Made by a program: the position numbers and the translations under genes. This document shows, piece by piece, positions 25,296-30,880 of a DNA stretch of 41,131 nt. The stretch spans positions 1 through 41,131 of the forward strand of contig PLYQ01000036.1 of NCBI GenBank assembly GCA_003153415.1, given 5' to 3'. The notes beneath the pieces are model-generated. The model saw only the letters and a program-made list of their open reading frames with translations. It was not told the origin of the DNA and did no database searches. Within the stretch, counting starts at the first letter, position 1. The number at the start of each line of letters is the position of its first letter. This stretch comes from Rhodospirillales bacterium. GTDB taxonomy: Bacteria > Pseudomonadota > Alphaproteobacteria > Reyranellales > Reyranellaceae.

Positions 25296-26120
25296 TCACA
25301 GCCCGCCGTTCACCACCAGACACTGGCCGCTGACATAGTCGCTGTCCGGGCTGCAGAACAGGTAGACCGAACCCGCGGCCTCGGTCGGCAGGCCGCCGCG
25401 GCCGAGCGGGATCATCTGGTTCATGGCGGCGATCCGGCCGCCCTGGACGCCGATCTTGACCTTGCGGCCCTGCACTTCGATCTCGCCCGACTCGCCCTGC
25501 GACAGCGGCTGGGTGAGGCGCGTCTGGATGTAGCCGAAGGCCACGGCGTTCACTGTGACGTCATAACGGCCGAACTCCTTGGCCAGGGTCTTGGTGAGGC
25601 CGATGATGCCCGCCTTGCCGGCCGAATAGTTCGACTGGCCAGCATTGCCGTTGACGCCCGAGGTCGAGGAGATGTTCACGACCTTACGCACGACCCGCTT
25701 GCCCTCGGAGCGCTCCTTCTCGACGGCCTGGCGGAAATGCTGCTGAAAGGCGCGCAGCACGCGGAACGGCGCAGTCAGATGGACGTCGAGAATGGCGTAC
25801 CACTGCTCGTCGCTCATCTTCTGAATGACCGAGTCCCAGGTGTAGCCGGCGTTGTTGACCACGACATGGCAGTCGCCGAAGGCGTCGACCGCGGTCTTGA
25901 CGATGCGGTCGCCGAAGTCGGGCTTGGCGACGTCGCCGTTGCAGGCCACCGCCTTGCCGCCCATCTTGATGATCTCGGCGACGGTTTCCTGGGCCGGCGC
26001 ATCGTCGATGTCGTTGATCACCACCCTGGCGCCGTCGCGCACCAGGCGCAGCGCGATCTCCTTGCCAATGCCGCGTCCCGAGCCGGTGACGATCGCCACC
26101 TTGCCATCCATCTGACCCAT
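25296..26120 (-). CDS. SDR family 3-hydroxyacyl-CoA dehydrogenase/oxidoreductase
   Basis: VAIVTGSGRGIGKEIALRL, NNAGYTWD, SNYSAGKAGIIGLTKTLAKE (intact YxxxK), C-terminus SGQCLVVNGGL. Confidence 0.93.
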   Translation of the reverse strand: MGQMDGKVAIVTGSGRGIGKEIALRLVRDGARVVINDIDDAPAQETVAEIIKMGGKAVACNGDVAKPDFGDRIVKTAVDAFGDCHVVVNNAGYTWDSVIQKMSDEQWYAILDVHLTAPFRVLRAFQQHFRQAVEKERSEGKRVVRKVVNISSTSGVNGNAGQSNYSAGKAGIIGLTKTLAKEFGRYDVTVNAVAFGYIQTRLTQPLSQGESGEIEVQGRKVKIGVQGGRIAAMNQMIPLGRGGLPTEAAGSVYLFCSPDSDYVSGQCLVVNGGL

Positions 26121-26140: not shown

Positions 26141-26563
26141 CTAGGCGGCGGCCACGGTGGCGTGGCCCTGCAGCGTGTCCTGGCCGTTCTGGTTGGTGCA
26201 ACGCACTTCGAGGTCGATCAGCTTCTCGCCGTTCTCCTCGCGCTTGCCCGTGACTTTGCCATTCAACGTAATGACGTCACCCACCCAGGTGATCGAGGTG
26301 AAGCGCGTACCGAGCTTGCGAATGCGGTCGCGCGGCGCGTAGCTGGTGACGAGGCGACCGAGGAAGCCCATCGACAGCATGCCGTGGGCGAACACGTCCT
26401 TGAAGCCGAACTTCTTGGCGAAGTCGAGATCGACATGGATCGGATTGTGGTCGCCCGAGCCGCCGCAATAGAGCGCGAGCTGGTGGCGGCTGATCGGCGG
26501 CAGGACGATCGGCTTGATCGGATCGCCCACCTTGACCTGGTCGAACTTGGGAACGGTTGCCAT
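26141..26563 (-). CDS. MaoC-like dehydratase/hydratase
   Basis: GGSGDHNPIHVDLDFAKKFGFKDVFAHGMLSMGFLGRLV carries the hydratase-2 motif. Confidence 0.9.
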   Translation of the reverse strand: MATVPKFDQVKVGDPIKPIVLPPISRHQLALYCGGSGDHNPIHVDLDFAKKFGFKDVFAHGMLSMGFLGRLVTSYAPRDRIRKLGTRFTSITWVGDVITLNGKVTGKREENGEKLIDLEVRCTNQNGQDTLQGHATVAAA

Positions 26564-26574
26564 GATGCCCTCCC

Positions 26575-27036
26575 TCACTTCTTGGCCGCATCGGGGTTGC
26601 GCACGACGGTGATGCCGGTGGCCTTGGCCACCAGCTTGCCCGCCTGGTCCTTCATCGAGGTCTCCGAGACCACGAACCACAGGGCGCCGCCCTTCTTGTC
26701 GTACATGTCGACCACCTTCTGCTGACAGGTGATCTTGTCGCCGACGAACACCGGCGCGAAATAGTCGTAGTGCTGCTCGCCGTGCAGGATCAGGCCGATA
26801 TCGACGTTGAGCAGCTTCAGCAGCCCGCCCTTCTCGGGGTCGTCATTGGTGATCGCCTGCAGGAAGGTCGGCGGCACCGGCAGGGCGCGGTAGCCGGCGG
26901 CCTTGGCGGCCGACTCGTCGACGTAGACCGGATCTTCCTCACCGATGGCCTTGCAGAACAGCTTCACCCGGCCGGCCTCGACCGTGGTGCTGAACGCCTT
27001 GAATTCGTGGCCGATAACCTTCTTGTCGAGCTGCAT
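26575..27036 (-). CDS. FAS1_DH-like / MaoC N-terminal-type dehydratase subunit
   Basis: FCKAIGEEDPVYVDESAAKAAGYRALPVPPTFLQAI...LHGEQHYDYFAPVFVGDKITCQQKVVDMYDKKGGALWFVV. Confidence 0.9.
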   Translation of the reverse strand: MQLDKKVIGHEFKAFSTTVEAGRVKLFCKAIGEEDPVYVDESAAKAAGYRALPVPPTFLQAITNDDPEKGGLLKLLNVDIGLILHGEQHYDYFAPVFVGDKITCQQKVVDMYDKKGGALWFVVSETSMKDQAGKLVAKATGITVVRNPDAAKK

Positions 27037-27062
27037 GGCCGCGTCCTCCCTCCTTGAATGAA

Positions 27063-27099
27063 AAACCCTCTCTCCGGCCCACGGGGCCAGAGAGAGGGT
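27063..27099. terminator. Strong two-tier hairpin AACCCTCTCTC-c-GGCCC-acg-GGGCC-a-GAGAGAGGGTT
   Basis: 11-bp outer stem and 5-bp inner stem with one mismatch, between two same-strand (-) genes. It could be a terminator or an mRNA-processing/stability element. Confidence 0.6.
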
Positions 27100-27114
27100 T
27101 GTCCGTTTCGGGTG

Positions 27115-28314
27115 CTATTCGTAGCGGCCGACGATGGCCACGCTCGAGATGTTCTCGCGCGGCGCGCCGCCGAGATTGTGCGTCATGCCGATGCGCGGGT
27201 TCTTGAGCTGGCGGGGGCCCGCCTTGCCCTGGATCTGCAGGTACATCTCGTAGAGCATGCGCAGGCCCGAGGCGCCGATCGGATGGCCGAAGCACTTCAG
27301 CCCGCCGTCGATCTGGCAGGGGATCTTGCCGTCGGCGTCGTAGAAGCCGTCGAGCACGTCCCTCCAGCCCTTGCCGGTCTCGGAGATGTGCAGGTCTTCC
27401 ATGGTGACCAGCTCGGTCACCGAGAAGCAGTCATGGACCTCGAACATCGAGATCTCGTCGCGCGGGCTCTTGATGCCGGCTTCTTCATAGGCCTTCTTCG
27501 AGGCGATGCGCGTGGTGTGGAAGTAGCTGCCGTCCCACGAATTATGGCCCGACTCCGAGCCGTTGGAGACCGAGAGCTGCAGCGCCTTGACCGAGACGAT
27601 GTCATGCTTGCCCATCACCTTGGCGATCTCAGGCGTGGTCACGATGGCGGCGGCCGCACCGTCCGACACGCCGCAGCAGTCGAACAGGCCGAGCGGCGAG
27701 GCGATCATCGGCGCGTTCAGGATGGTCTCCATCTCGACGGCCTTCTGGAGGTGAGCCTTGGGGTTCTTGGCGCCGTTCTGATGGCTCTTCCAGGAAACGT
27801 GGCCGATCGCCTTCTTGAGGTCCTCGCCGCTGACGCCATGCGCGGTCATGTAGGCGGTGGCGAGCTGGGCGAAATTGCCCGGCGCGGTGCCGCTGGCGTT
27901 CCACAGGGCCTGCAGCGGGCCGCCGCGGCCGCCGGGAAGGCCGCCGTAACCGGTGTCCTTAAGCTTCTCGACGCCGAGCGCCAGCGCGAAGTCGGCCGCG
28001 CCGGAGGCCACGGCATAGCAGGCGCCGCGGAAGGCTTCGGTACCCGAGGCGCACATGTTCTCGACATGCGTGACCGGAATGTTGGGCAGGCGAAGCGTCG
28101 TCGATAGCGGAATGCCCGACTTGCCGACATGAACTTCATCGATGGCGGTGGAGAACCACGCCGCCTGCAGCTGGTTCTGGTCGATGCCGGCGTCCTTCAG
28201 GCACTCCTTGTAGGCCTCGAGCATCAGCTCTTCGGCGCCGCTGTCCCAGCGTTCGCCGAACTTCGAGCAACCCATTCCGAGAATAGCGACCTTGTCCTTG
28301 ATGCCCCGAGCCAT
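27115..28314 (-). CDS. Thiolase (acetyl-CoA acetyltransferase-like, archaeal/SCP2-type)
   Basis: ENMCASGTEAFRGACYAVASG (active Cys), FEVHDCFSVTELV, LKCFGHPIGASGLRM, GGAPRENISSVAIVG. Confidence 0.92.
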   Translation of the reverse strand: MARGIKDKVAILGMGCSKFGERWDSGAEELMLEAYKECLKDAGIDQNQLQAAWFSTAIDEVHVGKSGIPLSTTLRLPNIPVTHVENMCASGTEAFRGACYAVASGAADFALALGVEKLKDTGYGGLPGGRGGPLQALWNASGTAPGNFAQLATAYMTAHGVSGEDLKKAIGHVSWKSHQNGAKNPKAHLQKAVEMETILNAPMIASPLGLFDCCGVSDGAAAAIVTTPEIAKVMGKHDIVSVKALQLSVSNGSESGHNSWDGSYFHTTRIASKKAYEEAGIKSPRDEISMFEVHDCFSVTELVTMEDLHISETGKGWRDVLDGFYDADGKIPCQIDGGLKCFGHPIGASGLRMLYEMYLQIQGKAGPRQLKNPRIGMTHNLGGAPRENISSVAIVGRYE

Positions 28315-28362
28315 GGCTGGCCTCCTGTAGTGGGGTTGGAATTCTACTCGCTTGAATATCTT

Positions 28363-28461
28363 ACTCCTCTCCCCCGCTAGGAGGAGAGGCCGGGTGAGGG
28401 GGTTACGCACTGCTTTCGAGGCCCCCTCACCTAACCTCTCCCCCTAACGGGGGAGAGGAAT
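28363..28461. repeat. Inverted pair of about 40-bp CCTCTCCCCC/GTGAGGGGG palindromic units
   Basis: ACTCCTCTCCCCCGCTAGGAGGAGAGGCCGGGTGAGGGGG (28363-28402) and the reverse complement of 28422-28461 match at 34/40 by hand count, separated by 19 bp. Confidence 0.75.
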
Positions 28462-28471
28462 ATGAGACGAC

Positions 28472-29914
28472 TCAGACCGGTGCCGCCTTCCAGAAATAAC
28501 GCTTGAAGCCGCCGCGCATGGTGTCGTTGTCGCGGATGCGGAAAGTCATGCGCATCTTGGCGCCGACCTTGACCTGTTCCTTGTCGCTGTCGGTGAAGTC
28601 GGCCATGAAGCGCCCACCCTCGGCAAAGGTGATCATGCCGTAGTAGCCGGGCGGGTCCGGCGAATAGACCAACGAATCGGCGGTGAACGACATGACCGCG
28701 CATTCGAGCCCGGCCATCGCGTAGGGATCCTGGCTGTCGATGGCGTGGCAGTTGGGATTGACGCAGACCTGGCTGCGCGGGAACTGGGCAGTGCCGCACA
28801 CCCGGCACTTGCCGCCGACCAGGCCGTAGATCATGTCGCGCTTGCGCCACAGGACGCTCAACGCGGTCTTCTTGTCGAACTCGGCGCGCATGCCCTTCTC
28901 GATCGGCAGCATTTCGTTGAAAGCGAGGAACTTCAGGTAGTTCTTCTCTTCCTTGCGCCGCGCCATCCAGCCCGACAGGCCCTTGCGCTTGGGCAGCTTG
29001 TCCTTCTCGGCGGTGACTTCGAACACCAGGATGTCGACGCCCTGGCCGAAGGCCACGACCATGATCTTGTCGCCGGCCTTGGCCGCCTCGAGCGCGTCGA
29101 CCAGCATGATCAGCGCGTGTGCTGCACCTGTGTCGCCGAGATTGGCGCCCAGCAAGTCGCGCACCGCGCCCTCGCCGATGCCGCAGATCTTGGCCATCTG
29201 CTTCGGGACGGCGGGCATCAGGCTCGGCATGATGAAGTGAGTGACGTCGCTGCCCTTGATCTTGCAGGCCGCAAGTGCCCCCTTGATCGCCGGCGGCACG
29301 ATCTTCGAGTAGCCCTCGTCGCGGATCCAACGCTCTTCCCAGCCATAGTCGAAGTCGGATTCATCGCCGCGGAAGTGATCGACGAAGTCCATCGACACGG
29401 AGTGATGGCCAACCAGCTTGGCGATGACGTTCTCGGTGCCGCACAGCAGCGCCGCCGCGCCGTCGCCGTAGTTCAGCTCATTCGACGAGGCGACGCGCGC
29501 CATGCGTTTGTCGGCAGCTGCCACGAGAGAGGGCGCGCCGTCCTTCGAGGCGTTGAGCCCGGCGATCAGCGCCGAGGTACCGGCCTTCAGCGAGCCGCCG
29601 ATGTCGGTGGCCGACAGGTTCTGTTCGACATTGAGCGCGGTGCCAATGACGCCGGCGTTCTGGCGATCCTTGAAGGGATGCGTCGTCGAGGCGAAGTAGA
29701 TGTTGCGGACGTCTTCGGCCTTGTGGCTGGTCAGGCAATCGCGTGACGCCTCGACTGCCATGGTGATCGAATCCTCGTCCCAGTTGGCCATCGAGCGCTC
29801 GCCCTTGGCGAGGCCACGCAGGCCGGCAGCGAACCACTTGTTGGCGTCGTAGACGGCCTGACGGTTGAGCCGCAGGCGCGGCACGTAAGCCCCGAAGGCG
29901 ACGATTCCGACCAT
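28472..29914 (-). CDS. HMG-CoA-synthase-like thiolase-fold protein fused to a C-terminal DUF35 zinc-ribbon/OB domain
   Basis: N-terminus MVGIVAFGAYVPRLRLNRQAVYDANKWFA resembles archaeal/bacterial HMGCS. The C-terminal CRVCGTAQFPRSQVCVNPNC zinc ribbon plus OB domain is DUF35-like. Confidence 0.85.
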   Translation of the reverse strand: MVGIVAFGAYVPRLRLNRQAVYDANKWFAAGLRGLAKGERSMANWDEDSITMAVEASRDCLTSHKAEDVRNIYFASTTHPFKDRQNAGVIGTALNVEQNLSATDIGGSLKAGTSALIAGLNASKDGAPSLVAAADKRMARVASSNELNYGDGAAALLCGTENVIAKLVGHHSVSMDFVDHFRGDESDFDYGWEERWIRDEGYSKIVPPAIKGALAACKIKGSDVTHFIMPSLMPAVPKQMAKICGIGEGAVRDLLGANLGDTGAAHALIMLVDALEAAKAGDKIMVVAFGQGVDILVFEVTAEKDKLPKRKGLSGWMARRKEEKNYLKFLAFNEMLPIEKGMRAEFDKKTALSVLWRKRDMIYGLVGGKCRVCGTAQFPRSQVCVNPNCHAIDSQDPYAMAGLECAVMSFTADSLVYSPDPPGYYGMITFAEGGRFMADFTDSDKEQVKVGAKMRMTFRIRDNDTMRGGFKRYFWKAAPV

Positions 29915-30034: not shown

Positions 30035-30880
30035 TTATCTTCCGGTGTGCGGAACCCCGCCTTGTGGCGGTATTTCGCGCACGAGGTTGCGATAGCCGGC
30101 GTCGGGCGGGATGTGCAGGAAGCGCTTGCCGTCACGCACCTCGACCCACGGCGCAACGGTGACCACCTTGCGCTTCGTCGCCTGAGCGATGGCGCTGGCG
30201 ACCGTGCCGCCTTCAGCCAGCAGCTCGAGATTCTTCTGCGTGGCATGGACCAGCATGCGCTTGCCGCCCTTGGCCTCGTCGATCGCCGCCTGAGCACCGA
30301 TCCAGACAGAGTCCACCGATTCAGAACCGTCGTGCAGCGCCACCTGATCGGCCGGCGCTTCCGCAAGGAAAAACCAGGTGTCGAAACGCTTGGGCACAAA
30401 GGTCGGCGTAATCCAGTGGGCGAACGGCGTCATGAATTCGGTGGCCAGTTCGAGATCCTCGGCTTCGACCAGATCGACGATGCTGGCCTCGTCCTTGGTG
30501 AGCCTAGCGCGCCAGCGGTCTTCGATGGGCTTCAAGTCCGCCGCGCCGATCAGTTCCTTGTGACTGCGCTTGTGGGCCAACAGGACTCCACATTCCTCGA
30601 AGGCCTCGCGGATGCCGGCAATGCGGAATTTCAGCTCGTCGTCGGACAGGGAAGCAGCGCCCGTCGAGCGGGCGCGCAACCTCTTGTCGCCGTCGGCGTC
30701 CTCGAGCTTGCCGCCGGGGAACACCAGGGCGCCGGAGAAGGAATCGATCTGGTGGTGGCGCACCACCATGAAGACCTCGAGCAGCGAGGCGGCGTCGTCA
30801 GGCTTGGACGGCCGCAGCAGCAGCACGGTCGTGGCGGGACGGGGTGGCGAAGGTTCCTTCTTTGGCGTGGCGTTCATCAT
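30035..30880 (-). CDS. NUDIX hydrolase (with insertion in the Nudix box)
   Basis: GALVFPGGKLED...FRIAGIREAFEECGVLLA. The spacing between GGK and REAFEECG is expanded, as in NUDT7/NUDT19-like proteins. Confidence 0.85.
   Translation of the reverse strand: MMNATPKKEPSPPRPATTVLLLRPSKPDDAASLLEVFMVVRHHQIDSFSGALVFPGGKLEDADGDKRLRARSTGAASLSDDELKFRIAGIREAFEECGVLLAHKRSHKELIGAADLKPIEDRWRARLTKDEASIVDLVEAEDLELATEFMTPFAHWITPTFVPKRFDTWFFLAEAPADQVALHDGSESVDSVWIGAQAAIDEAKGGKRMLVHATQKNLELLAEGGTVASAIAQATKRKVVTVAPWVEVRDGKRFLHIPPDAGYRNLVREIPPQGGVPHTGR

Follow-up and report, generated by a model that had tools for sequence, protein, structure and literature searches.

In the PhlABC complexes of P. protegens (PpATase, 5m3k) and C. 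sphagni (9skh), PhlA, an HMG-CoA synthase (HMGCS)-like subunit without the catalytic Cys, His and Glu, is encoded together with a DUF35 bridge, PhlB, and an active thiolase, PhlC, in the gene order A-C-B. The complex acylates phenols independently of CoA in antibiotic synthesis. The subunits of PpATase are arranged as Phl(A2C2)2B4, the substrate is contacted by PhlC residues only, and activity requires co-expression of all three subunits (PMC6392133). Cys88 is essential (PMC6392133; for the C88S result see PMC12955522). MucABC, the mutanocyclin complex (9vbo/9vbt), likewise consists of three unfused parts with an HMGCS-like subunit lacking Cys, and acylates tetramic acids in a biosynthetic cluster. 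The same three folds are found in the archaeal acetoacetyl-CoA thiolase/HMGCS/DUF35 complex (6esq), whose separate subunits channel the intermediate to HMG-CoA. Archaeal HMGCS is active and uses Cys114 and Glu82 for catalysis, both of which PhlA lacks (PMC6392133). Two further systems share part of this architecture. The benzoylsuccinyl-CoA thiolase BbsAB (7pxp) combines DUF35 and thiolase at the thiolytic end of a CoA-dependent β-oxidation, without an HMGCS-like subunit. The steroid aldolases Ltp2-ChsH2 and Sal-Shy are DUF35-linked thiolase-fold complexes that act with MaoC hydratases in side-chain degradation; here, the thiolase-type subunit has lost its Cys chemistry and performs retro-aldol cleavage.

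We analyzed a window of 41,131 nucleotides from a member of the Reyranellaceae, which encodes an HMGCS-like protein without Cys, His and Glu, a DUF35 part and a thiolase with intact catalytic residues side by side. In contrast to PhlABC, the counterparts of PhlA and PhlB are fused in Reyranella, and the thiolase belongs to another subfamily and to catabolic operons. Compared to 6esq, with which the locus shares ancestry, the HMGCS-like part is the one that lost its catalytic residues, and compared to Ltp2 and Sal, the thiolase keeps its Cys while the dead partner is HMGCS-like. We consider it probable that the fusion is a non-catalytic subunit, i.e. a PhlA-like pseudoenzyme of the HMGCS fold joined to a PhlB-like DUF35 bridge, in a PhlABC-like complex with the neighbouring thiolase.

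Domain layout and catalytic residues of the fusion protein

The features of the fusion gene are as follows; the plus-strand reading of the same interval is not the gene.

28472-29914, minus strand: HMGCS-like/DUF35 fusion gene, 480 aa, stop codon included; homologues in more than 120 loci
29009-29914, minus strand: HMGCS/KASIII-like domain, residues 1-302; PhlA and archaeal HMGCS by phmmer, PhlA and 6esq_I by Foldseek
29684-29686, minus strand: Thr77, aligned with the catalytic Glu (Glu82 in archaeal HMGCS)
29588-29590, minus strand: Leu109 (codon CTG) in the slot of the nucleophilic Cys, from alignments
29312-29389, minus strand: residues 176-201 with the family motif DFVDHFRG..FDYGWEERWIRDEG, where HMGCS has its DFWRR..YP loop
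29231-29233, minus strand: Ile228, aligned with the catalytic His, so that HQP reads IMP
28475-28894, minus strand: DUF35 part, residues 341-480, with a conserved GMRAE..DKKTA segment, zinc ribbon and OB fold; matches 6esq_E and PhlB
28748-28807, minus strand: zinc ribbon C370/C373/C384/C389; all four Cys in 41 of 58 family members

Pfam matches were obtained to zf-ChsH2 (PF12172, zinc ribbon) and OB_ChsH2_C (PF01796, OB fold), both above the gathering score, as well as to the KASIII C-terminal domain. The built-in DUF35 fusion proposed in an earlier note on this DNA is therefore real. A misreading of two ORFs as one was rejected, since almost every locus examined encodes the homologue as a single ORF; in a few alphaproteobacterial relatives (L140-L142), the OB part may be a separate ORF. 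A larger fusion at L157, suggested by an 845-aa open frame, was rejected as well, since the extra length is merely a GC-rich lead-in free of stop codons. About a quarter of the family has partly or wholly lost the ribbon Cys (residues matching 370-389) and retains the OB part (L101, L105, L110, L149, L154, L157, L125 and L143-L145). A sigma-70 promoter scan gave no match.

Homologues were collected from genome contigs, 385 genomes of the class, 399 of the phylum, and plasmids. Homologues were present in 67 of the 385 and in 10 of the 399 sampled genomes, and include proteins from Variovorax, Azoarcus, Paraburkholderia, Rhodococcus, Mycobacterium, Streptomyces and haloarchaea. The 58 non-redundant members used below come from alpha- and betaproteobacteria, Actinomycetota and haloarchaea.

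When aligned with the archaeal HMGCS 6esq_I (...AADLEFACKAGT...), the protein places Leu109 in the slot of Cys114 and Ile228 in that of the His of VFHQP. With S. aureus MvaS, aligned by MAFFT, the slots fall on identical columns, and their positions agree across the independent alignments with archaeal HMGCS, MvaS, PhlA and MucA. The earlier note had read Leu for Cys and Ile for His from the letters alone, quoting the codons GGC GGC TCG CTG AAG GCC GGT ACC; these are present on the minus strand with CTG encoding Leu109, and both replacements are borne out by the alignments. The third loss, of Glu to Thr77, had been missed. Throughout the 58 members, the Cys slot never holds Cys (33 Q, 8 L, 6 R, 4 P, 2 A, 2 T, one M, one G and one gap), the His slot never holds His (23 V, 19 I, 10 A, 6 C), and the Glu slot is occupied by T in 52, S in four, and A and C in one member each. 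The closest relatives of the Reyranella protein (88-96% identity) have L, Q or M in the Cys slot, never Cys.

Two readings in which the old active site would still work are addressed by these slots. The protein could be an ordinary HMGCS or KASIII, with its active residues merely shifted out of register in the alignment, given that it matches the curated HMGCS profiles NF003274 (177.8 bits) and TIGR00748 (124.2 bits). Both scores are below the respective cut-offs (244 and 353.35), the independent alignments agree, and 54 of 58 members have no Cys at the slot or up to three residues away from it, which makes this reading extremely improbable. What is found, an HMGCS fold that has lost Cys, Glu and His, corresponds to a PhlA/MucA-type subunit and not to an HMGCS. 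Alternatively, the protein might resemble the KSQ domains of polyketide synthases, which are known for their decarboxylation chemistry, and act as a malonyl-type decarboxylase that feeds an enolate to the thiolase. Gln is indeed the commonest residue in the Cys slot, and the FabH C112Q structure (9ka5) is among the fold matches. However, the Reyranella protein has Leu and other members have Arg, Pro or Ala, the gene contexts are catabolic, and the His required for decarboxylation is replaced in every member. We rejected this very unlikely possibility because the His slot never holds His.

The fusion genes are under purifying selection, with dN/dS values of 0.07-0.13 among the closest relatives, which is of the same order as for the thiolase. 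Together with the sequences of the close relatives, this rules out a sequencing error or a pseudogene. The Cys and His slots show about average variability, which is not what a functional site would display, and large parts of the domain are strongly conserved. The combination of ordinarily variable slots, a conserved domain and low dN/dS indicates that the loss is old and that the protein is still needed.

Structural relatives, descent and the conserved loop

A phmmer search of the PDB with the N-terminal part gave PhlA (9skh, 5m3k) as the best match, followed by the archaeal HMGCS 6esq_I, and also retrieved 9vbo_A; the C-terminal part matched 6esq_E and PhlB. We built an AlphaFold2 model of the fusion protein from 19 input sequences (mean pLDDT 71, pTM 0.73), in which the linker 328-362 and the loop 178-193 are poorly defined. 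Foldseek with this model returned PhlA, archaeal HMGCS and MucA on top, ahead of bacterial HMGCS and KASIII. In a maximum-likelihood tree rooted on bacterial MvaS, PhlA, MucA, the Priestia homologue and all fusions form one Cys-less clade (UFBoot 99) that adjoins archaeal HMGCS. Sequence, fold search and tree thus agree on PhlA and MucA as the nearest solved relatives, with archaeal HMGCS next. The topology is consistent with the catalytic residues having been lost once, prior to the fusion, although the point of Cys loss is only roughly placed, as just one of the five Cys-bearing references in the tree is an archaeal HMGCS. The Priestia homologue belongs to a PhlACB-like triplet on a Priestia megaterium plasmid (L158:3992-6770; Cys-less HMGCS-like protein, thiolase and zinc-ribbon protein), which adjoins NRPS genes and resembles published muc-like Type IV clusters.

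The loop of residues 176-201 covers the old active site and is rich in charged or aromatic residues. Across 19 alphaproteobacterial members, most of the loop residues do not vary or hardly do so. Such conservation may exceed what a pure scaffold needs, and the loop might have a ligand-binding or new catalytic role. A repurposed enzyme, for instance a retro-aldolase or hydrolase using new residues such as those of the DFVDHFR/WEERW motif, would account for this conservation, and Cys-less DUF35-linked proteins of the thiolase fold can be aldolases (PMC12329534). On the other hand, the motif is reduced to WEER in actinobacteria and gone in haloarchaea, the Cys and His slots vary, and PhlA, the closest solved relative, plays no part in acyl transfer (PMC6392133). 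We thus regard a repurposed enzyme as unlikely. The retro-aldolase that the earlier note had offered by analogy to Ltp2 was rejected for the HMGCS-like subunit. It belongs to another fold lineage and has no YDxF, its partner thiolase has Cys, and the known DUF35-linked aldolases Ltp2 and Sal are thiolase-type subunits with a YDHF or YDCY motif (PMC12329534).

A related reading, in which the dead HMGCS pocket has been rebuilt as a new functional site around the WEERWIRDEG loop, has a somewhat better though still small chance of being correct. Such a site would bind a CoA ester or support a reaction free of Cys and His, and the fusion would then take part in the chemistry or substrate choice of the thiolase complex, beyond a structural role.

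The thiolase partner and its operon

In Reyranellaceae, five genes follow each other on one strand in the order fusion, thiolase, MaoC1, MaoC2 and SDR. The features around the fusion gene in the window are:

30035-30877, minus strand: 280-aa protein directly upstream of the fusion
28359-28465: palindromic GC-rich repeats CCTCTCCCCC...GGGGGAGAGG, two copies in a 107-bp inverted pair in the gap between fusion and thiolase
27115-28314, minus strand: thiolase of the PRK06157 type, 399 aa (NF004810, 692 bits, over the cut-off)
27057-27107: another palindromic GC-rich repeat, between thiolase and MaoC1
26575-27036, minus strand: MaoC1, hot-dog hydratase-like subunit (FAS1_DH region) without the D-H motif, as read from the sequence
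26141-26563, minus strand: MaoC2, hydratase subunit with the motif SGDHNPIH
25296-26117, minus strand: SDR, probable 3-hydroxyacyl-CoA dehydrogenase

The palindromic repeats inside the operon are like REP/BIME elements. The upstream protein is conserved in 52 of 62 close loci and shows by eye a Nudix-like motif, REAFEECGVLL; searches of Pfam and NCBIfam gave no match for it.

The catalytic residues of the thiolase are intact (VENMCASG, EVHDCFS and GGLKCFGHPIGASG), and its relatives in the PDB are 7yvy, 6esq_A and BbsB (7pxp). Since it has Cys and HDCF, and not YDHF or YDCY, the Reyranella thiolase is not of the Ltp2/Sal kind. None of the sampled partners, among them those of actinobacteria and haloarchaea, has lost Cys or HDCF. 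All 62 close loci and 63 of the 75 distant ones have a thiolase within 300 bp of the fusion, some of the loci being near-duplicates; in the other 12 distant loci it is farther off or was not seen in the stretch covered. Judged by gene content, the locus thus resembles the PhlA/MucA type, in which the HMGCS-like subunit is encoded with an active-type thiolase and DUF35, the latter being fused here. The genome itself has four other DUF35 genes, each beside a thiolase-like gene, and carries the HMGCS-like fusion only here.

By analogy to PhlABC, the fusion and the neighbouring thiolase, as the counterpart of PhlC, would assemble into a complex in which the fusion would be needed to fold or shape the active-site cavity and the CoA entrance of the thiolase, and not to produce HMG-CoA. 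A scaffold for the thiolase had been among the suggestions of the earlier note, and it appears to be the one that holds: the nearest solved relatives are the non-catalytic PhlA and PhlB, and a thiolase is adjacent in nearly all loci and keeps its catalytic residues in the sampled partners. Channelling of an intermediate between two active sites in the archaeal style, also suggested there, is unlikely, as the second site is devoid of every catalytic residue.

Thiolysis by the thiolase is probably the last step of a β-oxidation module, with hydration by MaoC1/MaoC2 and oxidation by the SDR before it, and the substrate is probably a bulky or branched acyl-CoA. SGDHNPIH is the hydratase D-H motif that marks the active subunit. 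As read from the sequences, MaoC2 is probably the active and MaoC1 the inert partner, which suggests a second pair of active and inert paralogues beside that of the thiolase. A biosynthetic complex, in which the thiolase would form a C-C bond by Claisen condensation or Friedel-Crafts acylation with the fusion as scaffold, would agree with the closest solved complexes, PhlABC and MucABC, being C-acyltransferases, and a set of MaoC and SDR can also operate reductively. Yet the thiolase keeps GGLKCFGHP and has its nearer relatives among archaeal, SCP2-type and BbsB thiolases, PhlC being more distant, and in other genomes the fusion-thiolase pair lies beside acyl-CoA dehydrogenases, ETF, CoA ligases, CoA transferases, SDR and MaoC. 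This renders a biosynthetic role quite improbable. Based on the β-oxidation setting and the kinship of the thiolase, we infer that thiolysis is the likelier direction. On a Mycobacterium avium plasmid (L162:5001-7548), the pair adjoins ring-hydroxylating dioxygenase genes.

Implications for the family and the estradiol cluster

The kind of protein described here is known in principle: a DUF35 structure paper from 2010 already regarded PhlA as an inactive member of the thiolase superfamily and gave cases of DUF35 fused to proteins of that superfamily (PMC2954200). We found no description of the fusion as a family in the open literature. It is a widespread protein that carries the labels HMG-CoA synthase, KASIII or OB-fold protein in annotations, despite missing the residues for that chemistry. 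In the Reyranellaceae genome, whose assembly is about 88% complete, a search for a canonical HMG-CoA synthase elsewhere returned only the fusion gene and a weak thiolase match.

The family bears on a puzzle in estradiol degradation. In the edc cluster of Caenibius/Novosphingobium tardaugens, earlier authors were unable to assign a step to the "HMG-CoA synthase" EGO55_13555. A locus of Novosphingobium sp. ES2-1 (L131) matches the edc gene set, with a P450, a lipid-transfer protein, an OB-fold protein and an EdcC-like oxidoreductase, and encodes an HMGCS-DUF35 fusion without Cys next to a Cys-bearing thiolase, as well as a separate lipid-transfer protein bearing YDxF. The ES2-1 fusion (H27) is about 31% identical to the Reyranella protein; EGO55_13555 is likened to it via the ES2-1 cluster alone. 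This suggests a fused, non-catalytic subunit of a thiolase complex as a possible answer to the edc puzzle, and in thiolase assays the fusion partner should be co-expressed. Overall, the separate PhlA and PhlB, the fused protein, and the fused protein without zinc ligands provide a natural series in which the role of a dead paralogue beside an active enzyme can be probed.
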